From: Lepus europaeus
Taxonomy: Eukaryota > Chordata > Mammalia > Lagomorpha > Leporidae
Assembly: GCF_033115175.1 (NCBI RefSeq)
Contig: NC_084844.1
Span: forward strand, 33,141,885-33,205,884
DNA length: 64,000 bases
Direction: 5' to 3'
Position numbers and translations under genes: made by a program
The notes under the pieces: model-generated
Databases searched by the model: none
What the model was told of the DNA's origin: nothing
What the model saw: the letters and a program-made list of their open reading frames with translations, nothing else
Shown: piece by piece, positions 22,005 to 64,000 of the stretch
How positions within the stretch are numbered: position 1 is the first letter of the stretch
Layout of the letters: each line of letters opens with the position of its first letter

Positions 22005-22180
22005 CACCGGGCCTCTGCCAAGCGCCTTATATGCGTTATCTCTTTCAGGTCTCACCACACTCCTTAGAGGAAATAAGTACTGCTGTCCCCATTTTATAGA
22101 TTTGGCAACTGAGGCTCGCGGGCCTGACGTCACCCTGCTCGTCTCTTGCAGACAGAACTTAGTCTCACACTCAGGCATGC
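22005..22180 (-). repeat. MIR SINE
   Basis: 'gcgccttatatgcgttatctc', 'ccccattttatagatttggcaactgaggctc' is the reversed MIR core. Confidence 0.7.
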
Positions 22181-23400
22181 TTAATTCTCCAGCCCACGCT
22201 CACCACAGTAAGACAGTCCCCCTTGGCCTGCGACAGGTGCTGACCCGGTGACAGGGGTCCAGATCCGCCGGCCGCAGGCCCTGCTGTGGGTGCAGGGCAG
22301 GCAGCAGCCCAGGTCTTGCATCCCAGGGCCGGGGGCTGGTGGCTGCGAGGGCGGCAGCCCTTCCCCAGCCCTGCTGCCTGCTTTGCCATCGCAGAATGTG
22401 CTGCTAATTATAGCCAAACACAATGAGCAATCACAGCCCCTGCGGCTGAGCTCTGGGTGAGCTCTCTTGTTAGAGGTCTGGCAGGCTTTTCATTCCAACT
22501 TCCCAGCAGCCTGGAGGCGGCGGCGCTGGCAGGAGCTCTGGGCTCAGCTGCCCCCGCCCCTTTGCACCCCCTCTCCTTCATGCCTGGGCCGCCAGATGCA
22601 ACCAGTGTTGTACTTACTTAGCCCCTACTGTGTACAGGCTCTGCACTAGGTCTTTGTTCTTGCCTTCAGTGAGTTCCTGGTCTTCCCACGAGTCTCCTGA
22701 TCAGAATCAGAAGCGCCAGGCCCGGTGGAGCGTGGTGGTCAGGAGCGAGGCTTTAAGCAGCGGGCGTCCTCGGCCCCTTCGCTCTGTGGCCTCTGCCTGA
22801 TTACCGGCCGTCATCAACGGTGTGGGGGCATGGGGGCTTGCTGGAATGGACGCTGTCTGGTGGTGCCCGCTCCTACAGGATGTCCCAGGGAAAAGAATTC
22901 TTTCCAAATCGTGCAGAATATAAACCTGGGCCAATAAAAGTGATGCATGAAGTCATTTAGGCCTTGGAATCCAAAGAGAGCATTTGCCAGACACCTGTTT
23001 GGACCTGGGAAGGATGAGAAGGGACCGGCAGCCTGGGAGGGTGGGGAGCTGCGTCTGGTTCCGGGTCCTGTGCTGAGCGCGGACGGCCTGCTGCTCCCCC
23101 ACCAGGCTTCTAGGGACCAGGTTTACCTCTTGACCCCTTGGCCCTTCTCATCCTTCCTGGCATCTGAATTCCTTAGGTGTGCCCAGGGCACTGTTCTTCC
23201 TGCCCCCACATGGGTTCGTTACCTGCTGTCATCTAACCACCCTTAGATTTTAGCGGAAAATTCATCAAGATGCTGTTCCTCTGACTGCTGAGGATAGCTG
23301 GGTCCTGTTCCTTGAGGAACCCCCACAGCGTCCCCAGCACAAGGCCTGCCCAGAGAAGCAGAGCAGGACACACAGGAGGTGTCTTCAAAAAGCCCATAGG
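22181..23400. other. GC-rich unique block, no gene recognised
   Basis: 22240-22580 is moderately CpG-containing (gatccgccggccgcagg; ggaggcggcggcgctgg) but not a clear island. The 22600-22660 'gcccctactgtgtacaggctctgcactagg' is an old MIR/L2-like trace. No coding evidence. Confidence 0.45.
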
Positions 23401-36650: not shown

Positions 36651-37079
36651 GGATAGGGCTAGGGGGTGGAGGACTCGGATGCTTGGGGCAGGGTTTGCAG
36701 GATGAGGCACCTAGGAGGCGCCCGGTTGGTGCGGGGGACCTTTTGGTTGGGCCTGAAGCCACCAGCTCCTGTGGCCTCCGAGCAGGCTGGAGAGTCTCCT
36801 TTGCGCCTGCTGTTAATGAAATGGCAGGGGAGTCTCCACACTGGAATGGGCCTGGCGTGGGGCATCCTGGAGTTCTGAAGCGGCTTCCTCCCAATGCAAG
36901 GGACCTCCGGGGGCATCTGGGAGGGCACCCAATGTCAGTGGAATGCACCTGGGTCCCCCTGGGCAAGGCTTCCACTTCCTTGAGCTTCAGATGATCATCA
37001 GTGGGCCTGCTTCTGAGCTTCGTGTGAGGATTCCAGAGGGAACTCACAGCCAACTGTACTGCTTCCCGCATGGCTGACA

Positions 37080-37245
37080 CTGCGCTCAGCGTCTTACTAT
37101 GTGAGTTCAGGCACCAGGTGCGTGCTATCAGTATTCCCATTTTATTAACGAAATAACTAAAGCATAGAGAGGTTAAGTCACTTACCCAAGGTCACAGTGC
37201 TAGTGAGTAGCAAAGGTTAGGTTGGAATCCAGTCATGTCGTGCCA
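37080..37245 (-). repeat. MIR SINE
   Basis: 'agtattcccattttattaacg', 'agagaggttaagtcacttacccaaggtcacag' is the reversed MIR core, well preserved. Confidence 0.85.
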
Positions 37246-37287
37246 AAGCCGTTGTTCTCAGCCCTGGCACAAACTGCCTTCAAGGGT

Positions 37288-48461: not shown

Positions 48462-48804
48462 GGGGCCAGAGCCGCGGCTCACTAGGCTAATCCTCCGCCT
48501 TGCAGCGTCGGCACACCAGGTTCTAGTCCCGGTCGGGGCACCAGATTCTGTCCCGGTTGCCCCTCTTCCAGGCCAGCTCTCTGCTGTGGCCAGGGAGTGC
48601 AGTGGAGGATGGCCCAAGTGCTTGGGCCCTGTACCCGCATGGGAGACCAGGAGAAGCACCTGGCTCCTGCCTTTGGATCAGCGCAGTGCGCTGGCCACAG
48701 CGGCCATTGGAGGGTGAACCAACTGCAAAGGAAGACCTTTCTCTGTCTCTCTCTCTCACTGTCCACTCTGCCTGTCAAAAAAAAAAAAAAAAAAAAAAAA
48801 AAAG
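48462..48804 (+). mobile_element. C-repeat SINE, type B
   Basis: 'gggccagagccgcggctcactaggctaatcc' to a 28-bp A-run. The flanks GGTGGCTAGGG (48451) and GGTGGTTAGGG (48805) form the TSD. Confidence 0.93.
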
Positions 48805-49237: not shown

Positions 49238-50200
49238 TTTAGAGACATGACTGCCAGGCGAGCTGGATGCTGGGACCACTATCGGATGGAGGCGTCAGGA
49301 AGAGAAGCAGCCTGGAGTGGATCTGGAAGGGTTGGGAATGAGTTGTTTTGGACATGCTGCATTTGGGGTGCTCACGAGGCATCCATGGAACAGCTGCAGT
49401 TCAACACTTTGTTCTCCCTTCCAGTGTTTTGATTGGACACGTGGCCACTCAGAAGGAAGCCGTTATCAGTCAGTCTCCCTTACCGTCACATGTGGCCCTA
49501 AGCAGACTAAGCAGCCCTCCTGGACCCGAGGAGAAAGCGGGGTGTGGCGAATAACAGAAGGATCCCCAGCCCCTGACACAATGGTCCTCACACCAGGCCT
49601 GCGCTTCACGCCTCCGGACTCTGTTGTCTAAAACAAACTTCATCTTCTCTGCCACTTTACTTGAGGGTTCCCTTTACTCCCAGCTGGCAATATTTCTAAC
49701 GAGTGTAGCAACTGAACGGAGACGTCCACTGGGCAGTTAGATCTGAAGCGTCCAAAGTGGAGGGGAGAGAGCCTGGCCAGCTGTATTTGGATTTGGAATT
49801 TACCAGTCCATGCTTGCTCACGGAAGCCATGGCAACATATGAGATCACTATGGGAGCAGAGAAGGATCTAGAACAGAGCTCTTGGGAACACCAACACTGA
49901 AAGCAGGAGCAGGGAAGAGGAGCCAGGCAAGGAGGCCGAGCAGTCAGAGAGCAGCAAAGGAACCAGGAAGGGGCTGTGCACCAGAGCCCCGGGAGGTGAG
50001 AGCCCTGGGAGGTGCGCTCAGCAGTGGGAGGACAGCCATCTCCACCTGCTTCTGTGCGTATGGATGGCTCCTCAGAGCCTGAAAAACCAACTTAGAGTCC
50101 TACTGCTGCCCTGAATCACAGCAAAGACTCTCCTAGCCACCCTCCCACTAGGAGCCCTTCAGTGGATCATTTCTTGGTAAAGTTCTAGCTCCTTAGCCCA
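49238..50200. other. unique sequence, no gene recognised
   Basis: No repeat family or coding domain visible; short frames at 49317 and 49882 lack support. Confidence 0.5.
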
Positions 50201-50204
50201 TGCT

Positions 50205-50500
50205 TTGGGCTCCTCCATCGCCTGGCTCTGGCTCTTCTGTCCAGCCTGTTCCTTCCCCAGCATGCTGTGTCCCTGCCAGACCTGGCTTCCTACCCTTCCC
50301 AGCCTTGGCTCCGGTGCTGCTTTCTCACTGAAGAAGCCTCCCCCTTTTCCTTTTGCTTTTGTTTTTCAAAATCCAGCTCACTCTTCAAGATCTACGTCAT
50401 GTGCCAGCTCTTCTGCTCCCAGATTCTCCCCAGCAGACTAACTGCCCTCACCCTGAGCTCCCAGAGCATTCTGTTCGGTCTCAATCACAGCCCTCGTTAA
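50205..50500 (+). repeat. L2 LINE fragment
   Basis: 'gcctcccccttttcc', 'aaatccagctcactcttcaagatctacg', 'gagctcccagagcattctg' fit the L2 order before its 3' end. Confidence 0.55.
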
Positions 50501-51062
50501 AGCTGCCTGTGTACATGTGCGCCTCCCCAGTTAACGCTGCAGCTTGCAGAAGCCCGAGGCTGCTGCGGGCCGCACATCCCTGTCTCCCTCGGTGCCTTCC
50601 ACCGAGCTTGTTACAGAAGGTTACGAAATGCTTATGGATTTCATGGAATTGTTGTCCCTCCACAGTCCCCAAGTAATAGTGTGGTCTTTGCCTTTTTTTG
50701 TTCAGGTGATGGGGGATGCCACTAAAATAGAGAACCTTGCTTATAGGAAAACAGATAAGGCATTGAATTTGAATCCAGATGCTCAAAGAAATAACCCCAG
50801 TCTGAGTTTCCCCTGATCCAAGCAAGTTGTATCATCCGAACACTCAAGAACCACCTTATGAATGGAAAAGCAACAGAAAAAAAGGAATTAAACTGAAGCG
50901 TGGTTCGTTAAAGAGATGAACAAACTGACAAATCTTCAGCTAAACCAACCAAGAAAAAAAAGAGAGAAAAGACTCCAGTTACTAAAATCAGGAATGAGAA
51001 GATGTTACTACAAACTTTAAGGAAGTAAAAATGATTATAATACTATTAATAACTAAACGCCC

Positions 51063-51399
51063 GGGGCCAGCGCTGTGGCATAGCGGGTAAACCTCTGCCT
51101 GCAATGCCAGCATCCCATATGGGCACTGGTTCGAGTCCTGGCTGCTCCACTTCCGATCCAGCTCTCTGCTGTGGCCTGGGATAGCAGTAGAAGACGGCCC
51201 AAGTCCTTGGGCCCCTGCACCCGCGTGGGAGACCCAGAAGAAGCTCCTTGCTCCCGGTTTCTGATGAGTGCAGCTCCAGCTGTTGTGGCCATCTGAGGAG
51301 TGAACCAGTGGATGGAAGACCGCTCTCTCTTTCTGCCTCTCCTTCTCTCTCTGTGTAACTCTGACTTTCAAGTAATTAAGTAAATCTTTAAAAAAAAAA
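51063..51399 (+). mobile_element. C-repeat SINE, type A, inside L1
   Basis: Flanked by AATAACTAAACGCCC (about 51048-51062) and AATAACTAAATGCCC (about 51400-51414), a 15-bp TSD with one change. Confidence 0.93.
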
Positions 51400-52484
51400 A
51401 TAACTAAATGCCCAAGAATTAGGTAACCTAGATAAAAACAAATTCCGTGAAAGACACAAACTACTAGAACTACCTCAAGAAACACAAAATATGAACAGAC
51501 CTACAACAAGTAAAGTAGTTGTATTAGTATTTTTTTAAACTACCACAAAGTTAGTTCGAGGCCCAGATGGCTTTATTAGTGAATTCTACTAAATTATTAA
51601 ATGAAAACCAATCCTCTATACTCTTTCAAAAAAAAAAAGAATATGAAGAAACACTTTCAAATTAATTTCTTGAGTTCAATAGCTCAGATACCAAAATTAG
51701 TCAAAAGCATCACAAGAAAACTATGCATCAACATTGTTTATGAGTATAGAAGCAAAAACCTCAACAAAATACTAGCAATATCAACACAGCAATATACACA
51801 AAGGATTATACATCGTAACCAAGCAGGATTTATCTCAGGAATGCAAGATTGATTCAATGCTCTAAATCAATGTAATATACCATATTAACAAAGGACAAAA
51901 ACCACATGACCATCTCAATAGATGCAAAACAAGCATCTGACAAATCCAACACATTAATGATTAAAAACACTCAGTAAGCCAGGAATAGAATTGAACTTCC
52001 TCAACTTGATAAAAACTCAACATCTAACAGTCTACATTTTTGGTGAAAGACTAAAAGCTTTCTCCTAAGATTAGGAATCAGAAAAAGATGACTGCTCCCA
52101 TTGCTGCTGTTCAACACTATACTGAAGTTCTAGCTAGGACAATTAGGAAAGAAAAAGGAATAAAAGGTACCCATATTGGGAAGGAAGAAGTAAAACCCTC
52201 TCTCTGCATGGATTACATGACCTTGTATAGAGAAAATTCTAAGAGTACATGTGCACTGCTAGGAATTAATGAACAAATTCAGCAAGGTTACTGGATACAA
52301 AATATGAAACACTATACAAAAATCAAATGTATTTTTATGCACTAGTAATGAATCATGTTCAGATTTGAACATGAAATTAAGAAAACAATTCAATCTATGA
52401 TAGTATCAAAAAGAATTAAATACTTGGGAATATATTTATTAGAAGACGGACAAGACATGCATACCAAAAATTTTAAGATATTAA

Positions 52485-52525
52485 GGGGCCAGAGCTGTGG
52501 GGTAGTGGATAAAAATCTTTCCAAA
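52485..52525 (+). repeat. minimal SINE remnant (head joined to tail)
   Basis: 'ggggccagagctgtggggtagtgg' is a type A SINE head. It runs straight into 'aaatctttccaaaa', the usual tail junction, so about 280 internal bases are missing. Confidence 0.55.
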
Positions 52526-53395
52526 AAAACCCACACACAACTAATAAAAAGGCAAATAACAATTTAAAAAAGGCAAAAGGTCTGAATAGACAGTTTTCTA
52601 AAGAAGACTTGCAAATAGACAATAAATGCATAAGGAAAGATGTTCAACGTAAGTTATTAAGAAAATGCAAATGAAAACCACAATGAGATACCACTTTGCA
52701 GCTGCTTAGGGTAAGTATAATGAAATTGACCAACAATAATAAGCATTGGCAAGGATATGGGGAAATTGTAAGCCTAATAAAATGGTGTGGCAATTTCATG
52801 AAAGGTTGGCATAGAGTTGCCATAAAACCCAACAGTTCCACACCTAAGTATATACCCAAGAGAAATGAAATCATATATCCACACAAAGTCTTGTTTATGC
52901 ATGCTCCTAGCAGGAGTATTCATAATAGCTAAAAAGTAGAAACAACCCAAGTGTCCATCAACTGATGGATAAACAAAATGTTGTAAAGCTCATGCAATAG
53001 AATATCAATTGGCTGTTAAAAGATCAGGATCAGGCTGAAGTCCTGATTCATGCTATAACATGAAAGAGTCTTGAAAATATTATACCAAGTGAAATAAGTC
53101 AATCATAAAATACCATATATTTTATTGTATGGTATAGTTTTATGAAATATCCAGAATAAGAAAATCTACAGAGACATTACATACATTAGTGGGAATTGGG
53201 GATGGAAGTGGGAGTGACTGCAAATGGGTATGAGGTTTCTCTTTAGGACAATGAAGTGTTCTCAAAGTAGATATTCACAGCTCTGCAAACATACAAAAAC
53301 CCACTGAATTTTGTACTTCGAAAAGGTGAATTTTATGATATGTGAATTATATCTCAGTAAAGTTGTAAATATAAAAATACAGCTACTTTATTATG

Positions 53396-55240
53396 TTGAA
53401 ATGCGACATGGGTGTTCATTTTCCTAGTGAGAAAGATTCAAAACGTTCCTTGTTAGCATGATGAATAAACCACATTATACCTGATAAAGTTTTCCTTCAA
53501 AATTATCCTCACAAAGGGAGGCAAAATTGTACAGATTTCATATGTTAAGGCTCCCCCATCATTCCCCACTTCCCTCTGAGAGACCGAGGTCTACATTTTG
53601 TGACAGTGGGTACAAGGACCTTTCTCATACACGATTTTTGTCTCCTGCTCTGGAGTATATATATTTGCAGCGTGCCCATTCTCCTTGGTTGCTTGTGGGT
53701 TCTCCTTCTGTCAGCTGCTCCTCCCTCACCCTCAGGTCTGTCAGTCAGCCTGTCCTCTCTTTCCAGGGCTGAAAGGTGGATGGATGGATGTCCCAGTTTG
53801 TGCAATCAGATCCCCTTCACCAGGAATCTGAGTTGAGAGTGGAAGATTCAAGGAAAAGGCAGATGATTGGCCTTCTTGGGATGCCCCAAGGAAGTTGTTT
53901 CATGGTTGCTGTTAGCTGGATCAGGAGAGTTAGTCATTCTGGCCTTGTTGTTTTGTTTTCGTTTTGTTACTTGCATCCAAGAACCCTAACTTGGTCTTTT
54001 CAGATATACAAGGACTGAACAATTCCATAGCATTGTCTTGATTCTCTCACAGCAGAGACAAGCTTCCTCAGGGTTTTCAGAACATGGAGGAAGGAGACTC
54101 CTAACTTACCAGGTCATGACATGAACAAAGTATTTCCATCGGTGCATCTCTTTGGCCCCTTCTTGGTGATCATTTGTTTTAAATGATCCATTGAACCTCA
54201 ACTAAATCCAGGCACCTAGTTTCTTGGGGGAATACAAACATGAAAAAATTTATATCGCCATTCTAAGAAACTCATTTGGTGTGAACTTGGAGTGGATCAG
54301 AGAAAAGGAACAGCAAAAGAGGACATTTAAACCTGCCTAGAGGTAGAGACTCCCAGCTGAAGAGATTTCTCTGGCCCAGAAGGTATCCTTTGTGACAGGC
54401 ATTGAAATAGATCACCCAGTCCTATATTTGCTGATGAAGAAATTCGGTTTCTGAGAGATAAAGCCGAAATTGATGAGCAGCCAAATTGGGCTCCAGGCTT
54501 CTTCCCTCATTCCCAGTTCAGTCCCTGTCTCACTAGTTTGTAGTCACATGGCTGACCCGGGCTAGCCCCGCCAGGTTTCAGGGAGTGTGGGGAGGAGGAG
54601 GGACAATATTCGGGCCTTGGTAAATAGTTGCCTAGGGAAATATGTCCTACAAGGTCACCTGAGAAATCAGCAAAGAATTGGGGCAAATTCCAGTGGTTTT
54701 AGTCATTGTTTTGTATCTTGGGTTTTTAGATTTTGCATTCAGTGTGTGTACGTCCCAGCCTTCTCCAATTTCTTGGATTCCTTGAAGCAGATCAGTAGCT
54801 AAAGGGCTCGGCAAAATGACCTCTGCCACTTCTATGGTCTCTTTCCCGCGGGTAATCCAGTCAGCTGGAGTTAGATTGTTTTCACCTACAAGGATATCGG
54901 TCAGATACTCTAAGTAGAACGTGAGGAGGAAGTCAGTTCAGAAATCAGGGTTGAACTTTCCCCAGGGTTGACAATGATTTATTTTAGCTGGAAACTTGTT
55001 GGGGTCAGGAAGGGCCCAGTGTAAATAGCATGCATTGCAAGGGAGTGTGTGTGTTGGGGGGGAACCTGGACATTGTTCTTGTGGGTAGAAGAAAACAAGG
55101 AATGTTCTACCAAGCTTTATTTCAGCCATGAATGGGCACAACCAGTTTAACCAAAATATACATAGACCTGCTCATGTTTCAGTAACAGTGCTAGGCCCAG
55201 CAGCCCACATGATCCTGGCCAGCAAGGAACTGCAGGCAAA
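53396..55240. other. 1.8-kb block without SINEs or recognised gene
   Basis: Mixed composition. 54200-54260 is faintly L2-like. Short frames (53527, 53600, 54587) have no domain. Confidence 0.5.
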
Positions 55241-55472
55241 CACAGAGTTAAATGAAAACGCATGGAAAACTCTTGGCACAGTGCCTGGTCCATGTAAGTG
55301 ATTAATAAGAGGTAGCAGCACCACCATTTCTCTCTCAGACTTGTTTCCCTTCCTTGGATTTCGTATCTCACTTCACGGCCCGTCACCCACGCCCAAGTCC
55401 AAGCTCCAGGGGAGCCTCCCCTTCCTTCCCACGGTGCTGTCGTCACCCATCCAGCTCCTGGCTGCGTTAACA
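55241..55472 (-). repeat. inverted duplication, arm 1 (derived copy)
   Basis: The reverse complement of this arm matches 55944-56175 at 231 of 232 positions. The only difference is cactTac against cacGtac. Its MIR-derived portion (55241-55312) ends abruptly at 55241 and is followed outward by unrelated sequence, so this arm looks like the inserted copy. Confidence 0.92.
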
Positions 55473-55943
55473 CAAGGCTGATGCATGTAATAGGAAGTGG
55501 TCAGGGATAAGCCCTGGGTCTCACGGGGCACAGAAGAGGGATATGCATCCCCTTGGGCTTCAGGGAAGGCTTTGCAGAGGACACTCAAGCCAAGGAGTTA
55601 GGAAAGAAATCGACAAGCGTCAACAAGAGAAGGCAAGAGAAGCACATGCGCAAAGGTGTGGAAGCTGGGTACAGGGGAACAGCAGTCGATGGTGTTCCTA
55701 GAGTAGGAAGAGTGAATGGGAAGGAAGGGCAGTGAGGTGTATGTGTGTGGGGGAGGGGTGGATAAGTTACAGCAAAGGGCCTAGTGTCTATTCTGAGCAG
55801 GATGAAGGGAAGTGCTAGGGGAGACCTCATTTACAATATATCACTGTAGTGTAGATTTAGAAGAGCCAAGAACAGAGACCGGGATCTAACTGGAAGAGAT
55901 GATGAGAGCCTGCACAGGCTCTGTGAGAATGAAAGGCACGGGT
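55473..55943 (+). other. spacer of the inverted duplication
   Basis: The spacer is purine-rich and holds sequence resembling an old L2 3' portion ('gggcttcagggaaggctttgcagagg', 'gagtgaatgggaaggaagg'). A GTGTGTGTGGGGG stretch lies at about 55740. No gene is seen. Confidence 0.4.
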
Positions 55944-56175
55944 TGTTAACGCAGCCAGGAGCTGGATGGGTGACGACAGCACCGTGGGAAGGAAGGGGAG
56001 GCTCCCCTGGAGCTTGGACTTGGGCGTGGGTGACGGGCCGTGAAGTGAGATACGAAATCCAAGGAAGGGAAACAAGTCTGAGAGAGAAATGGTGGTGCTG
56101 CTACCTCTTATTAATCACGTACATGGACCAGGCACTGTGCCAAGAGTTTTCCATGCGTTTTCATTTAACTCTGTG
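55944..56175 (+). repeat. inverted duplication, arm 2 (probable source)
   Basis: This arm pairs with 55241-55472 across a 471-bp spacer. The MIR element in this arm continues past the boundary at 56175 to about 56320, which marks it as the original location. Confidence 0.92.
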
Positions 56176-56320
56176 AAATAGATAGCATCTTCAGTTTGTA
56201 GATGAGAGAACGGAACCCTGAGGTTTGCACAGCTTGGCCAGATCCACTCAGCAGTGGAGTGGTGGGAATGAGGCTAGATCCAGGCATTGCGGCTCCAGGG
56301 ACAATGCCCCTAACCACCAG
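56110..56320 (-). repeat. MIR SINE
   Basis: Antisense MIR: 'accaggcactgtgccaagag', then 'tttgtagatgagagaacgg' and the 'cagcttggccag' block. Its first 66 bp belong to the duplicated arm. Confidence 0.6.
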
Positions 56321-56569
56321 GCTTTGTGTACGTGAAGAGTCAGAAGAAGATGTGAGACATGCACAGTGCAGAGGTCAGGACACTAGGAGTGGGGGTCACC
56401 AGGGGCCAGATCATGGTAAAAAGCAAAACAAAAAAACCTCATGAATGTGAATAAAACTACTAAGTTGAGCAGTGGCCAAATCACAATGACTTGGGGAACC
56501 CTGAAATTAATGTAGCCAGAGTGTTAGGGGCCCACAACAGATGGGACAAAAACAATTGCTCCGAGTTGT

Positions 56570-56908
56570 GTTTTTTTTTTTTTTTTTTGACAGGCAGAGT
56601 GGATAATGAGAGAGAGAGAGACAGAGAGAAAGGTCTTCCTTTTTGCCATTGGTTCACCCTCCAATGGCCGCTGCAGCCGGCGCATTGTGCTGATCTGAAG
56701 CCAGGAGCCAGGTGCTTCTCCTGGTCTCCCATGCGGGTGCAGGGCCCAAGCACTTGGGCCATCCTCCACTGCCTTCCCAGGCCATAGCAGAGAGCTGGAC
56801 TGGAAGAGGGGCAACCGGGATAGAATCCTGCGCCCCAACCAGGACTAGAACCCGGTGTGCCGGTGCCGCAAGGCAGAGGATTAGCCTGTTAAGCCACAGC
56901 GCCGGCCG
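56570..56908 (-). mobile_element. C-repeat SINE, type B
   Basis: T-run, 'gacaggcagagtggataatgagag' to 'gttaagccacagcgccggcc'. Confidence 0.93.
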
Positions 56909-57239
56909 CTCCCTCTGAGTTTTAAATCAGAAGACCCGACGCGGCTACCCGGGCAATCACAGTGCAGCGGTACCCAAAACCTCTACAAGTGAATCCGACA
57001 CATTCAATATAACAGTTACCATGCTGCATAATAACTATTCCAAACAGTAAGCGTTCTACATAGAGTAATTAGTATAGCACGCTTCCCAAACTGCGTCCTG
57101 TGGAATAATAGTTCCTGGAGATGTTAATAAATGTTTAGATAAAAAAGTGCTTTGGAGTCAAGACACACTTAGGAATGCTGGTATCATTAGAGAGCCACGT
57201 CCCCTCCCTGTTTACACCTTTTCTCTTTCTGTTAGAAGG

Positions 57240-57440
57240 CAGCGTAGCATATTGCTGACATTGTGGGCACCAGAATCAGCCCGCAGTTGAATCCTACTAC
57301 TGACAAGCTGGGTAATCGGGCAGGATACTGAACTTCTCTAAAAAAGAGTTAGCTGGTCTTTATAGGGAGATAATATAGACTCACTTCAAAACACAGTTCC
57401 TAGGATTAAATGGAATGCATTTCATTTAAAACAGGTAGGA
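57240..57440 (+). repeat. MIR SINE
   Basis: 'ggcagcgtagcatattgctgac', 'gcagttgaatcctactactgacaagctggg' then 'gggagataatatagac' match the MIR order. Confidence 0.7.
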
Positions 57441-57496
57441 CAGAGCCTTGTTTTGTATGAGACCTCCATAAAGATGACTTCTTATATTATTATTAT

Positions 57497-58145
57497 TTAA
57501 ATGTTTATTTTCATCTTCTTGGAAGGGAGAGCTACAGAGGGAGAAAGAGAGATCTTCTACCCACTGATTCACTCCCCAAATGCCCACAACAGCCAAGGCT
57601 GGGCCTGGAAACTCCTGGGTCTTCTACATGGGTGTAGGGGCACAAGCACTTGAGACATCATCTGCTGCTTCCCAGAAGGCACTAGCAGGAAGCTGGATTG
57701 GAAGAGGAATAGCTGGGACTGGAACCTGCACTTTTTTTTTTTTTTTTTTTTTTTGACAGGCAGAGTGGATAATGAGAGAGAGAGAGACAGAGAGAAAGGT
57801 CTTCCTTTGCTGTTGGTTCACCCTCCAATGGCCACCACGGCTGGCGCACCGCGCTGATCCAAAGGCAGGAGCCAGGTGCTTCTCCTGGTCTCCCATGCGG
57901 GTGCAGGGCCCAAGCACTTGGGCCATCCTCCACTGCACTCCCTGGCCACAGCAGAGAGCTGGCCTGGAAGAGGGGCAACTGGGACAGAATCCAGCGCCCC
58001 GACCGGGACTAGAACCCCGTGTGCCGGCGCCGCAAGGCAGAGGATTAGCCTGTTGAGCCACGGCGCCGGCTTCTGGAACCTGCACTCTTGATATGGGATG
58101 TGGGCATCCCAAGTAGCCACTTAACCCGCTGTGCCACAGTCTGCC
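57497..58145 (-). mobile_element. C-repeat SINE, type C, split by a type B SINE
   Basis: 57497-57731 is tail and middle; 58073-58145 is the reversed head (tgatatgggatgtgggcatccc ... gtgccacagtctgccc). The type B copy sits between. Confidence 0.9.
57732..58072 (-). mobile_element. C-repeat SINE, type B, nested
   Basis: Flanked by a perfect 13-bp duplication CTGGAACCTGCAC (57719-57731 and 58073-58085) within the older SINE. T-run of 22. Confidence 0.95.
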
Positions 58146-59859
58146 CTGAGATGAGTTAGTATTAAACCATACTATTATTAACAAGTCTCCCTGCCATCCC
58201 ATAGAGTTTAGTCCTTGTCACACACACACAACACACAACACACATGTGCTCATACTCACATTTCTTAGAAGTCCAAAGTCTTGGTTCCTGTTAGTTGAAG
58301 TTCTTTGTGCCCCAGTAGCTATTCCAGGGAAGGCGAGCAGGCCAAGGAAGAGTTCATGCCTCCCCCCAGCTTACAGTCACCTTTGTACACACTGGTTGGA
58401 CACTGGCTGATGCCAGAGCACCCAGATTAGCCAGCGCAGGCTGTACTTTAGCCCTCACTTCCTCCCTCAGTTGGATGCCTTTGTGCAGTGAATACCCACA
58501 CAACCATACAGGGCAGTTACCTCCTTTAGAGCCTGCAAGGGGTAGAAAGCTAATGACTGTTGGAGAGAAAGAAGGTACTAGCTATCGTCTGTAAGCAGCC
58601 CATGAGATGAGCTTTACACAAGCCCTAAGCAGACAAACCTCCTCCTCTGGTCCCTCCTCTCCCCACATGTGCCCCACCCCCCATTCATCAACGCGGAGGC
58701 TGACATCAGAGTACCCTTGATATGAGGGGGTACCCCCAAGCCTTGCCTGCGTCTCCGCAATGCTGGGTTGAGGTCCGGAGAGGACAGAGCTGTGGAAAGC
58801 ACAAGCCGGAGGGAAGATTTTCCAGGTTTCTCCCAACACCTGGTGCACGCTAGTTAATTTGCTCTAAACCAGAGCAGGCCAGGGCCAAAGCAAATCTGAC
58901 TTCCGGACCATGGTATGGAGCAGTGAAGGGAAAAAGCTGGGAGTGGGAGCTAACCCTGGCAGCATCTAAGCCCCACTGTGTCATCAAAATGCCTGGCTTC
59001 CAATAAAGACCCTGGGCAGTCCTTCAGGTAGACACTTCCTGTATGAAACCGTCTGGGAAGGCGAGCATCCACTTCCTGGGAGGGGTGGGGGTGGAGCGGA
59101 GGGCCTGCACACACCGCGGCCCTGCAGAGGGTCTGCTGCCTGGCTGCACGGCTCTCCAGCCTAGAGGCCAGATCTGGGCTGCTCCGCCATGCTCTCTCCT
59201 CTATAAAGTGAGGGCCCTGGACACGGGGCATTGATTGTTTAAGGCTCCTTGAAGCTCTAACAGGCTTTGGCTCCCATCTCTGGGGCTTCCACTGGCCCCT
59301 CCAGGCCTACCTGGACAGGTAGACCAACTTAGGGGACAGGGCTCCCTCCCGGACAGCGGGAGGCCTGTGTGCCCTGCCCCCTCACCGGTTTGCTCAGGGT
59401 CTGCCGCCCCTGCTCTGGGGCCCCAGCTGGGAGTTAAGGTCCTGCAGCCTTCAGACTGGGACAAAGGCCGAGCGGGAGGGGGAGGGGAGGCCTGGGGCTG
59501 TGGTTACCGCACACAGAGTGGCACTTGGACAGAGTGGGGGGTTGGGGGAACGGGTGCCCTGCGGTCCTCTGAGGCTGCCGACTGTCTCCTCTCCCTCCTG
59601 GCCCTAAGGCTGGGCCCTCTACGCCTTTCCCAGGTCCCCCTTGGGCCTGCACTCTCCATCCCCTTCTGCGGTTTTCTCTTTGGGATTGCGGTCTCCACGC
59701 CCCTCCCTACTCTCCTCTGGAGCGCGGCCTCTTTATTCCGGCTCAGGCTCGGCCCCTCCGGCCCTGGGCGAGGGGTCTGCATTCTCCCTTCTCTCTGAAG
59801 ACCACAGCTCCCTCCCCCACCCCCTCCAGATCTTCGCTCCCCTCCCCCTCCCTCAGCCC
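58146..59859. other. SINE-free DYNLL2 5' flank
   Basis: Contains (CA)n at 58219-58244. GC content climbs toward 59860. Pyrimidine-rich 59590-59860 precedes the CpG island. Frames over it are compositional. Proximal regulatory elements are likely but none can be named. Confidence 0.5.
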
Positions 59860-59874
59860 CGAGGCATTGTGGGA

Positions 59875-60000
59875 GGAAACAAGATGTGGGGCGAGAGCGG
59901 CGCGGGGAGAAGCCCGCAGTGCGGGGCCGGGCGGGCGCAGCCAATGGGGAGCGCGGACGGCGGCGCGCGCAGCGGGGGGGCGGGGGCGGGGCGCTATTTC
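59875..60000 (+). promoter_or_regulatory. DYNLL2 core promoter, TATA-less, CCAAT and GC boxes
   Basis: A CCAAT box lies at about 59940 (cgcagCCAATgggg), and GC boxes (GGGGGCGGGGGCGGGGC) lie at about 59976-59992. No TATA box is seen at a suitable distance. A purine-rich element with CATTGTGGGAGG lies at about 59864. This arrangement (CCAAT, then Sp1-type boxes about 15-60 bp before the GC-rich leader) is typical of dispersed-start CpG promoters. The exact start site cannot be read from sequence. Confidence 0.7.
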
Positions 60001-60295
60001 AGTGGGGGCCGCGCGTCGGCCGCGCTCAGCGGCGGAGCGGAGCGGAGCGGAGCGGCGAGGCGCCGGCGCGGAGCAGGCAGGCAGGCAGGCGGGCGGGCCG
60101 GCGGCGCGAGGGGGAGCGCAGGCGGCCGGGGACGCTCGAGGGGCGGGCGGCGGCGGCGGCGAGCGCGCGGCCCGGGCTGCGGGAGCGGAAGACCGCGGCG
60201 GCGGCGGCTGGAAAAGCCCAGGGGACACCGCCCCTGTCCGCGCTCTGCTTCAGGCCATCGCTGCTCCCCAGGGGCCCGGACGGACCTCGGCGAAG
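60000..60295 (+). other. DYNLL2: DYNLL2 exon 1, 5' untranslated (start approximate)
   Basis: The 3' end is set by a strong donor, GCGAAG|GTGAGC, with GT at 60296-60297. No ATG-led LC8 frame lies in it, so it is a leader exon. It is GC-rich with a GGAGC repeat (gcggagcggagcggagcgg at about 60030-60055) and a GCAGG repeat (about 60070-60090). The 5' end is set only by the position of the GC boxes and is uncertain by tens of bases. Confidence 0.7.
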
Positions 60296-62419
60296 GTGAG
60301 CAGTGGGTGGGGCCGCCGGGGGCCGCCGGGGCTGCGTCGCCCGCGCGCCCCGGGCTTCGCCCCGGCGCTCCTGTCGCCTCCTTGCCCCACGCCGGGCCTG
60401 GCCCCTCGGTGTCGGTGGCCCCCGGGCGGCCGAGTTGCCGCTTGCAGGCTTTCGGTGCGGGGCCGGGGCCGAGGGGTGGAGAGGGCTCGGGCGTGACGCG
60501 GCGGCTCCTGCGGCGAGGACGCCCAGTCACTCCGGCGCGGCTGCGGGCCGGGCGGGGGAGGGCGCCAGGTGGGGGCAGGACGCCTTCTCCTCCCCCAGGT
60601 GCTGCCCTTCGGGACCGCGGCTGTCGGGAGGGTGGGATGTGACCCCCGCGGGGATCCGAGGGGAGGGCATGGGAGCATCTGTGCGTGTGTTGAGGGCGGT
60701 CCCTGGCATTCCCAGGTTTAGCCTTTTTTTTTTTTTTTTGGTCGCAAAAACCGGGCGTCGAGGACGGGAGCTACCCCGCAGTGCCCCTTTCGCTCGCTGT
60801 GGAAAGGAGCCCCTGGCTCGTGACTGGCGGCTGGCCCCGGGCCCTCTGGCCATCGTGCTGTCTGGAGGCCCTGGTCCCTTGCTTTTTCCCCGGGAGGGAG
60901 GGGCTGGGCTGGGCATCTCCCTATCCTGTTCTCGGTGGCACCTTGGACAGGGGTGATGGGGGCTGGGCCTCACCTCTCAGGAGCCTGGGGGCCAGGGGTG
61001 AAGAATCGTGGCATTGTAGTCACAAGACCAACATTATGTAACCGCGGGCTCTCTCCTGCAGGGTAAGGTGGCTTTTCATGACTGTGACAAACTTGTTCCT
61101 TTGGACTTGAAGGCTGAGGCAGTGGAGCTGGGGAGCTCGCTGGCAAAATGGTGCCAGTGCTTGGCTGGCTGTGACCAGGCCCCACCCCCACCCCCGGGTT
61201 TGTAAACAGTGCCCCCTTCCGAGAGGTAACCTGCAGCAGGCCGCCAGGTGACACAGAGCCTTGTCATAGCACGACATTCTGCTTGTGTTGCTTTGTACCT
61301 TTGTTCAAAACCCTTTGAGGCTGGCACATGTATCTCGTTTGAGCCACTGGGTTTAAAATGAAGATGGTCATTTGCCCAAGGTCACGTCGCAGGTCTGGTC
61401 TTCAGTAACATTCTCCTGACCTTTGCCCAGCACCAGAGCGGGCTCACACACTCCCCGAGGGCGTGGGGCAGAGGGTGGGGGTCTGCACACTCCCTTTCAG
61501 CCTGTGTAGCCCGCAGGCTAATGTGGACTCAGGTCAGGTGGCTTGGAACAACACAGGGATCTCTCTTGAATCTCTGTGTTTAGCCATTGAGCTGGCCACT
61601 TCAGGAGACAGCAGGGGGATTGTGACTGCTCCATGTGATGGGCCTGTGGCCAGGAACATCTCTGCAGCTCACCTCTGCTCCTCCACAGTATTTCCTGGGC
61701 CATGGTGGCAGTGTAGAGCCTGGCTGCCCTCTTGGGAATCCTCTCATCCCATATGATGGGAACCGCTGGTTGCTAAAGGATGAATGCCCTGGGCCAGACA
61801 GCAGGGATGTGAAACAGGACTGCTACAGTGCCTGGGCGCTTTTTAAAAAGCCCTCTATGTTCCCCTTGTTCCTATGTCTATTTAGGGGAAAGACTTCAGC
61901 ATTCCTGAGGAAAATAAACTGTTCCTCCCCACCATAGTATCTTTCACTTCACCTAGTAAGTTGGTCGTGTTTGAAAATTTGCGTAACGAGTAAAAATTTG
62001 ACCTGAAGGAGCAGAGATCCAGGGAGATGGCAGTGTTGGAGCTGGGTTTAAAATCTGGAGCTTTCAGAAGTTACATTGAGCTTCAAAGAACGAATGCTGT
62101 GGGGAGAGTGGGGAGGCAGAGGGGAGGAGGGGACTGAGACGTGATGGCGTGCGTGACTGGCCAAGTGCGATGCCACCACCCTGCGGCACCCCGTCCCCCG
62201 CTCCACCCTAACTAACTGGTACCTCGGCGGTCTGGACTGGGTGCTTCTCCTTTTTGCGTGGAACAGAACTTGGTACATTCTTGGGAGGGCCTGGTAGTCT
62301 GCTGCAGCTACTCTACTCTGCCATTGTAGCGTGTTCCTGTAAAACTTTGTTTTATAAAAGCAGGTGGTGGGCTGATTCCGGCCTATGGACAGCTTCTTGT
62401 ACATATCTCTTAACTAGTG

Positions 62420-62522
62420 AATCCTTTCAACAGCCGTCCTCATTGCTGAAATGCAAGAAAGCTAACACAGAGAAGCCGAGAGACTTGCCCAAAGCCACCA
62501 GTGTTCAGAGTAATGATGGTCA
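62420..62522 (-). repeat. MIR SINE fragment
   Basis: Antisense MIR core pattern: loss of 'cctcacaa' spacing but recognisable 'aacacagagaagccgagagacttgcccaaagc' order, the usual reverse of the MIR 3' core. It is old and lies inside intron 1. Confidence 0.5.
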
Positions 62523-62569
62523 TTAAATTAAGGGCTTATTCTGTTCAGATGTTCACCGCCTGGTTTTTC

Positions 62570-62690
62570 CTCAGGACAACCTGGTATTCCCCATTTTACA
62601 GAGGACCATGTGGAAGGACAAAGATTGAGTAATTGGCCCAAGGACACAGCTGGTACGAGATGCCATCTTGGCTCTCTGTGCTCTTTAGAA
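62570..62690 (-). repeat. MIR SINE fragment
   Basis: It contains CCCATTTTACAGAGGACC followed by 'ggcccaaggacacagctgg', the standard antisense MIR core. It is diverged, lies in intron 1 and predates lagomorphs. Confidence 0.6.
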
Positions 62691-62973
62691 TGTCAGAAAT
62701 AGACAAATTTTAGAATTGGGAAAACCTGATTGTATATATGATAGAAACTGATGGCCTATTATATCTTATTCCTTCTTATCCCCTATTTCCCAGAGTAGGG
62801 ACCAAATCTGCTAAAAGCCCAGGCGCTCCCCACCCTGAAGCCTCATGTCCATTTTCTGTTCCCTCGCGGTGTGTATGTCCATCTCCTGCTGAGGCCCACA
62901 GCCAGCACCTGATAGTCACGCCCAGAGTGTGGAGTTGTCAGCCTCACCTCTCTGCTTCTTCTGCAGTGTCACA

Positions 62974-63105
62974 ATGTCAGACCGAAAGGCAGTGATCAAG
63001 AACGCAGACATGTCCGAGGACATGCAACAGGATGCCGTTGACTGCGCCACGCAGGCCATGGAGAAGTACAACATAGAGAAGGACATTGCTGCCTATATCA
63101 AGAAG
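62974..63105 (+). CDS. DYNLL2: DYNLL2 first coding exon (residues 1-44), gene continues beyond window
   Basis: The 44 codons encode the N-terminal half of an LC8-type dynein light chain, starting [21 protein letters not shown]8 proteins are about 89-residue homodimeric hubs. They bind short TQT-type motifs in dynein intermediate chain, myosin V and many other cytosolic partners. The paralogue call rests on residues that differ from DYNLL1: Ser2, Asp16, Ala21, Asp23, Met29 and Tyr41 are all the DYNLL2 type. The exon begins after a pyrimidine-rich tract and CAG acceptor (AG at 62965-62966). It has seven untranslated bases, an ATG with A at -3, and ends in phase 0 at AAG|GTGTGT (donor 63106). 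The reading frame is intact with no lesions, so it is not a retrocopy. The missing residues 45-89, with the beta-strands of the dimer and ligand groove, should lie on the next exon after position 64000. The upstream CpG island supports broad housekeeping-type expression (inference). Confidence 0.96.
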
Positions 63106-64000
63106 GTGTGTGCACCCGGAGAGCTGTGGCTAACGGCCAGGGCTGGGGATTGGCAGCTGACCATGCTCCAATGAGGACTAGAGCTAGGGACATCAGAAAG
63201 CAAGCAGAACCCTAGTAACATGGAGAGCAAATTAGGGAGTGATTTTGAATTGCCAAAGAACACTTTAGGTGTTCTTAATGGGAACTCTGCTATGGACACC
63301 ACAAAGGCTTCTTATTGTTGATGTTCACAGAAAATGTTTCGACTGTGAAGCATTGGTGAAGGCTAAGACCGCAGAGAAGGTTAAGAATTGACTATTACTG
63401 GCCCAAGTCAGAACTGTGAACACTGAAGGTCAAGGATACGGGATGAGTGAGATCAAATCACATAAACAGTTTCAGGGAACTGTAGCATTTAAAATGGGGT
63501 AGCCTTATAATCCTCATCATGTAGGGATTTCCTGTTATCCACAGACTCGGGTACTGCATCGTCCCCTCTCCCTACATTCTAGAGAAAAGCATGGGCTTGT
63601 ATATACACACACACACGCACGCACGCACGAACACAAATAGATGAGTATATTCAGGTTTTGTCCCTGAAAAATTCCCAAGTGGATGTGAGAAGGGAGCTGA
63701 GCCAGAAGAGAGGATTGCTGGGGCCTCCTGACTCCTACTCAAGACCCGTGTGCATTGGAGGCAGAGTCTCAACCTTTAATATCCTCAGCTCCAGGATCCC
63801 CTGGAAGAGTGTGTGTGTGTGTGTGTATGAGAGAGAGAGAATCTGTGGAAGTGGATTAGGGTCCCCTTGTGGTTCTCTTCCCAGATGGAATGAGAAGCAG
63901 CTCTGGAGTCGTGATAGACTGTGTGTGTGTGTGTGTGTGTGTGGCCAAGGAATGCAGAGGCAGCTGGGGGTGCTGGCTCCTTGCTGAGTGAAGGCCTAGC
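63106..64000 (+). other. DYNLL2 intron 2, 5' part
   Basis: The intron starts at GTGTGTGC and runs off the window. It holds simple repeats (CA/CG-rich at about 63606-63632, (TG)n at 63811-63826 and 63921-63942). No SINE and no second coding exon with LC8 residues 45-89 was found within the window. Confidence 0.85.
63811..63942 (+). repeat. (TG)n microsatellites in DYNLL2 intron 2
   Basis: Two TG runs, 63811-63826 and 63921-63942, with a short (GA)n at 63829-63840. Confidence 0.92.

Follow-up and report, generated by a model that had tools for sequence, protein, structure and literature searches.

The window analysed here, a stretch of 64,000 nucleotides, contains the start of DYNLL2 and, ahead of it, a long and nearly perfect inverted repeat. 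An earlier note on this DNA had named DYNLL2 as the gene downstream of the repeat, and this is confirmed by a start codon at 62974 and by the first 44 residues, for which the best-matching PDB chains are named dynein light chain 2. A CpG island is found at about 59.75-60.75 kb, and the right arm of the repeat ends about 3.6 kb ahead of this island and 6.8 kb ahead of the start codon. DYNLL2 does not occur among the matches listed for literature on rabbit inverted repeats and duplications, a statement that concerns those matches and not the printed record as a whole. A SINE that we take to be the rabbit C repeat is present near 56.6 and 57.7 kb. These two copies (56566-56906 and 57732-58070) share the same orientation, stand about 1,165 bp apart and are 90% and 97% alike over two aligned stretches; inverted partners of the pair are found at 48464-48760 and elsewhere among the 25 longest of 574 inverted pairs.

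The inverted repeat itself lies in non-coding DNA and consists of a left arm at 55241-55472 and a right arm at 55944-56175, separated by a spacer of 471 bp (55473-55943). Compared base by base, the arms match as reverse complements, without a gap, at 231 of 232 positions, and their identity collapses immediately beyond all four edges, which bears out the near-perfect 232-bp inverted duplication described earlier. The single difference sets an A at 55297 against a G at 56119 on the plus strand, which is a C in the reverse complement. Chance is excluded as an explanation for the likeness, since the arm pair is recovered with an E value of 1.8e-117 (blastn, 55000-56450 against the window).

With a minimum length of 40 bp and a minimum identity of 93%, blastn finds no other inverted alignment in the window, and none at all inside any of 20 stretches, each of 10 kb, that were sampled from the same contig; 1,284 of the 200,000 bases in this sample are N. 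An ungapped repeat search recovers the pair as well, and in it the other 24 among the 25 longest of 574 inverted pairs are 77-94% alike, none being near 99%, and we take them for dispersed repeats. An octamer, CTCTGTGA, lies at 55919-55926, 18 bp ahead of the right arm's inner edge, and recurs at 56169-56176 across its outer edge; this repetition is probably due to chance.

MIR continuity and the source arm

An old MIR element provides a marker for which of the two arms is in its native place. Searching with nhmmer and a MIR consensus as probe, we find a MIR copy on the plus strand at 56099-56324 (E 1.5e-15) that crosses the outer edge of the right arm at 56175. The left arm contains only a truncated piece on the minus strand, at 55248-55316, which covers model positions 7-78 (E 3.3e-4). 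Its alignment stops at 55248, 7 bp inside the arm edge at 55241, with an envelope that reaches 55227. The right copy has an alignment gap at the point where the left alignment ends, and then the MIR resumes. Further old MIR copies in the window lie at 37063-37277, 22008-22181, 3184-2981 and 57473-57237, by the same consensus.

Because the MIR runs through the outer edge of the right arm while the MIR piece of the left arm ends there, the right arm is native at that edge. The earlier observation of a MIR that passes through the right arm's outer boundary and is cut off at the left arm is thus reproduced with this consensus. The step from this observation to the right arm as the source holds at the outer edge, by MIR continuity, but the inner edge offers no old repeat of the same use. 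In particular, the spacer, the left flank and the part of the arm outside the MIR gave no old repeat below E 0.24 besides themselves or the other arm (nhmmer, window plus a 200-kb sample), and a search of the animal's own genome gave no relatives of the spacer at the sensitivity of that search.

The one mismatch between the arms falls within the MIR part. The left-arm base at 55297 agrees with the MIR consensus used, and the right-arm base at 56119 departs from it and creates a ninth CpG. Because the left arm keeps the consensus base, the simplest reading, as far as this consensus can be relied upon, is that the right arm probably mutated at 56119 after it had been copied.

The same base bears on whether the repeat exists in the animal at all. 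Inverted chimaeras are a familiar class of artefact, and the earlier note had offered an assembly or cloning artefact as one of three readings, to which a library artefact may be added. A simple fold-back, however, would extend as a palindrome, whereas here there are two breakpoints with unrelated outer flanks and no palindrome beyond the arms. The window is free of N and the locus sits inside a 77.6-Mb contig of a 2.93-Gb genome in 649 contigs. Moreover, the left arm has the MIR consensus base, which would not be expected of an artificial reversed copy of the right arm, though a random error at that position would bring the base back in about one case out of three. We therefore consider an artefact very unlikely.

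The AACACA repeat and the probable origin of the left arm

A 6-bp direct repeat, AACACA, overlaps both edges of the left arm on the plus strand, the first unit at 55239-55244 on the outer edge and the second at 55469-55474 on the inner edge. The motif has no other occurrence between 55.0 and 56.5 kb, and the repeat that flanks the right arm is 2 bp only. Removing the copy together with one AACACA unit, 230 bp in all, yields the inferred empty site GGCAAACACAAGGCTG. Relative to this inferred site, the microhomology amounts to 4 nt at either junction: CACA where the growing strand would leave and AACA where it would come back. The last four bases of the first unit, CACA, pair with TGTG at 56172-56175, which we propose as the microhomology of the first switch; the first four bases of the second unit, AACA, would derive from TGTT at 55944-55947 and are our candidate for the microhomology used on returning. 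We infer the empty ancestor from this repeat, and hence also the microhomology; the direct repeat and the junction microhomology are one line of evidence, not two.

Simulated insertions give a measure of how often such a repeat would arise. A straddling repeat of at least 6 bp accompanies 2.8% of clean insertions and 1.7% of those with a target deletion (20,000 simulated of each); where the insertion comes with a target duplication of 1-10 bp, the share is 58% (20,000 simulated). A backward run of at least 4 at one junction is seen in 0.5% of simulated random pairs.

The 6-bp repeat around the left arm looks like a target-site duplication, and this is the feature that would speak for a mobile element, either as two insertions of opposite orientation or as one insertion at the left. 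For the right arm the resemblance fails, as its flanking repeat has 2 bp and the MIR crosses its edge. The arm was found at this locus only in the animal's own genome, in a search that scores the best candidates and in which the lack of a match does not prove rarity, and neither a poly-A tail nor terminal repeats could be seen by eye. A mobile element is barely credible as the origin of these arms.

The reading that we hold to be probable is that template switching during replication, of the MMBIR/FoSTeS class, inserted 230 bp, copied in inverted orientation from the right arm, at AACACA, about 470 bp to the left, in a single recent germline mutation. The left arm would then be the inserted inverted copy, on the minus strand, and the right arm the source, on the plus strand in its native place. 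During replication, or repair of a broken fork, the growing 3' end would halt at ...AACACA and pair, by its CACA, with the opposite strand at the outer edge of the right arm. About 230 nt would then be copied back towards the spacer, up to a halt at ...AACA, and the new end would re-anneal to the AACA of the original site, so that AACACA would be left on either side of the insert. In four-point notation, this would be a 1-4-3-2 event whose point 4 coincides with point 1 or falls just behind it. In the MMBIR model, as PMC2621351 presents it, junctions have 2-5 bp of microhomology, and a return in front of or behind the point of collapse sets whether a deletion or a duplication results.

The main rival is an inversion of the spacer between two breaks, of which one would have been staggered by about 232 nt and then filled in; in that case, the inner junction of the left arm would be native and that of the right arm new. 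Such an event leads to an identical layout, again with the MIR on the right, and some literature exists on staggered breaks and on inverted duplications at inversion breakpoints. The likeness lies in an inverted duplication that flanks a unique segment. Under this model, however, the AACACA at the left arm would be a coincidence of about 2-3%, and the new junctions that it predicts show 0 and 1 nt of microhomology in this sequence, though end joining needs none. Fly inversions with staggered-break duplication have this same arrangement of an inverted duplication around a unique segment. We regard the staggered-break inversion as unlikely.

A template switch with a short backward return is favoured because the left arm has the direct repeat, or 4-nt microhomology, against the 0 and 1 nt expected under inversion. 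Several points count against template switching. Chance alone produces the 6-bp repeat in about 2-3% of the simulations that lack a target duplication, no old repeat marks the inner edge of the right arm as native, and the 230 nt copied exceed the maximum of 128 (median 12) in the great-ape gold-standard set of PMC7954356, which came from a method aimed at short events.

Age, gene conversion and fate of the repeat

One difference in 232 bp suggests an age of about 1.0 My for the copy, with a Poisson range of 0.03-5.7 My, on a scale set by the 5% hare-rabbit divergence and the 11.8-My split given in PMC6065068. With the rate of 2.8e-9 per site per generation from the same source and 2-year generations, the estimate would be 1.5 My (0.04-8.6). 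For a copy that dates back to the hare split, at 5% divergence, the probability of at most one difference in 232 would be 1.2e-4 without conversion.

Ongoing gene conversion between the arms was another of the readings offered in the earlier note, and the repeat could on this account be an old inverted duplication whose arms were kept alike by conversion or by template switching between them. Homogenisation of the arms of short inverted repeats by template switching is documented in yeast (PMC8604942). The MIR part of the right arm has changed at 19 of 77 sites compared with 55 of 148 outside the arm, a difference that is not significant (Fisher p 0.07) and that conversion does not clearly predict. 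By direction, changes to G/C affect 10 of 48 A/T sites in the arm and changes to A/T affect 6 of 29 G/C sites there, compared with changes at 24 of 73 A/T sites and 21 of 75 G/C sites outside it. These small counts depend on a single MIR consensus, and they contain no excess directed towards G/C among the changes in the arm.

The observed/expected CpG ratio is higher in the arms (0.53 and 0.59) than in the spacer and flanks (0.18-0.27). We rejected this as a sign of conversion, since at least 8 CpG also occur in 118 of 880 windows of 232 bp matched for GC, and the count in the arms is therefore not unusual. The sharp edges and the intact target-site repeat fit a young event. Gene conversion is neither needed nor seen, and we consider an old, homogenised repeat very unlikely; a recent event is the best supported of the three readings that the earlier note had put forward.

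If the source animal is assumed to be a rabbit, the insertion may well be polymorphic, because its age of about 1 My has to be set against a split of the rabbit subspecies about 1.8 Mya and effective sizes near one million (PMC4148185). A polymorphic insertion could serve as a convenient marker and would allow the stability of a 232-bp inverted repeat to be tested.

Folded as RNA, the 935 bases from arm to arm have a predicted minimum free energy of -623.7 kcal/mol, compared with a mean of -310.6 for 20 shuffled sequences. This long predicted stem follows from the inverted repeat itself. No Rfam family matches in 50000-64000 at gathering thresholds. We infer that the repeat is without function. 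An RNA read across the locus would fold back into a hairpin of 232 bp, and recombination between the arms could in principle flip the spacer. A bolder version, in which the repeat segregates in rabbits and is still active, with arms that repeatedly flip the 471-bp spacer through recombination or template switching, a 232-bp hairpin transcript that is diced or edited, and an effect on DYNLL2, is in our view highly doubtful.

Comparison with known mutation classes

Inverted copying of nearby DNA is a known kind of mutation, of which the present case would be a rather long example. It is closest to the four-point template switch mutations (PMC7954356, PMC8794818), which likewise arise by a one-step reverse-complement copy of nearby DNA and leave an inverted repeat. 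Here the left arm is the reverse complement, at 231 of 232 positions, of a segment 471 bp away, and that segment is still in place, as judged from the MIR at the right arm's outer edge. The switch points are placed against an ancestor that we reconstruct from the AACACA repeat. Among the great-ape events, single inverted repeats result from the majority patterns 1-4-3-2 and 3-2-1-4, and point 4 lies before point 1 in many events (PMC7954356), a feature that the proposed event would share. The difference is one of scale, since here 230 nt would have been copied over about 700 bp, against the ape lengths given above.

The MMBIR/FoSTeS rearrangements of PMC2621351 have a junction microhomology of 2-5 nt, an inverted local copy and a small duplication at the return, which the present event would share as judged against the inferred empty site. 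The rearrangements described there are disease-associated copy number changes, mostly complex, whereas the present one has two junctions and 230 bp.

We also considered the small inverted triplication of PMC13334657, a DUP/INV/DUP of about 148/160/148 bp, which has an inverted segment of similar size and a breakpoint junction of about 6 bp. It was rejected as a class for the present case. The arm here is not directly duplicated, and there is one inverted copy with a 6-bp direct repeat only, at a distance of 471 bp and not of about 30.

The locus is of value as a legible case of a probable templated inverted insertion, since a single genome is enough to name its source, its target repeat and the likely switch points. 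In size, it falls between the short events catalogued for apes and the large rearrangements seen in genomic disorders.
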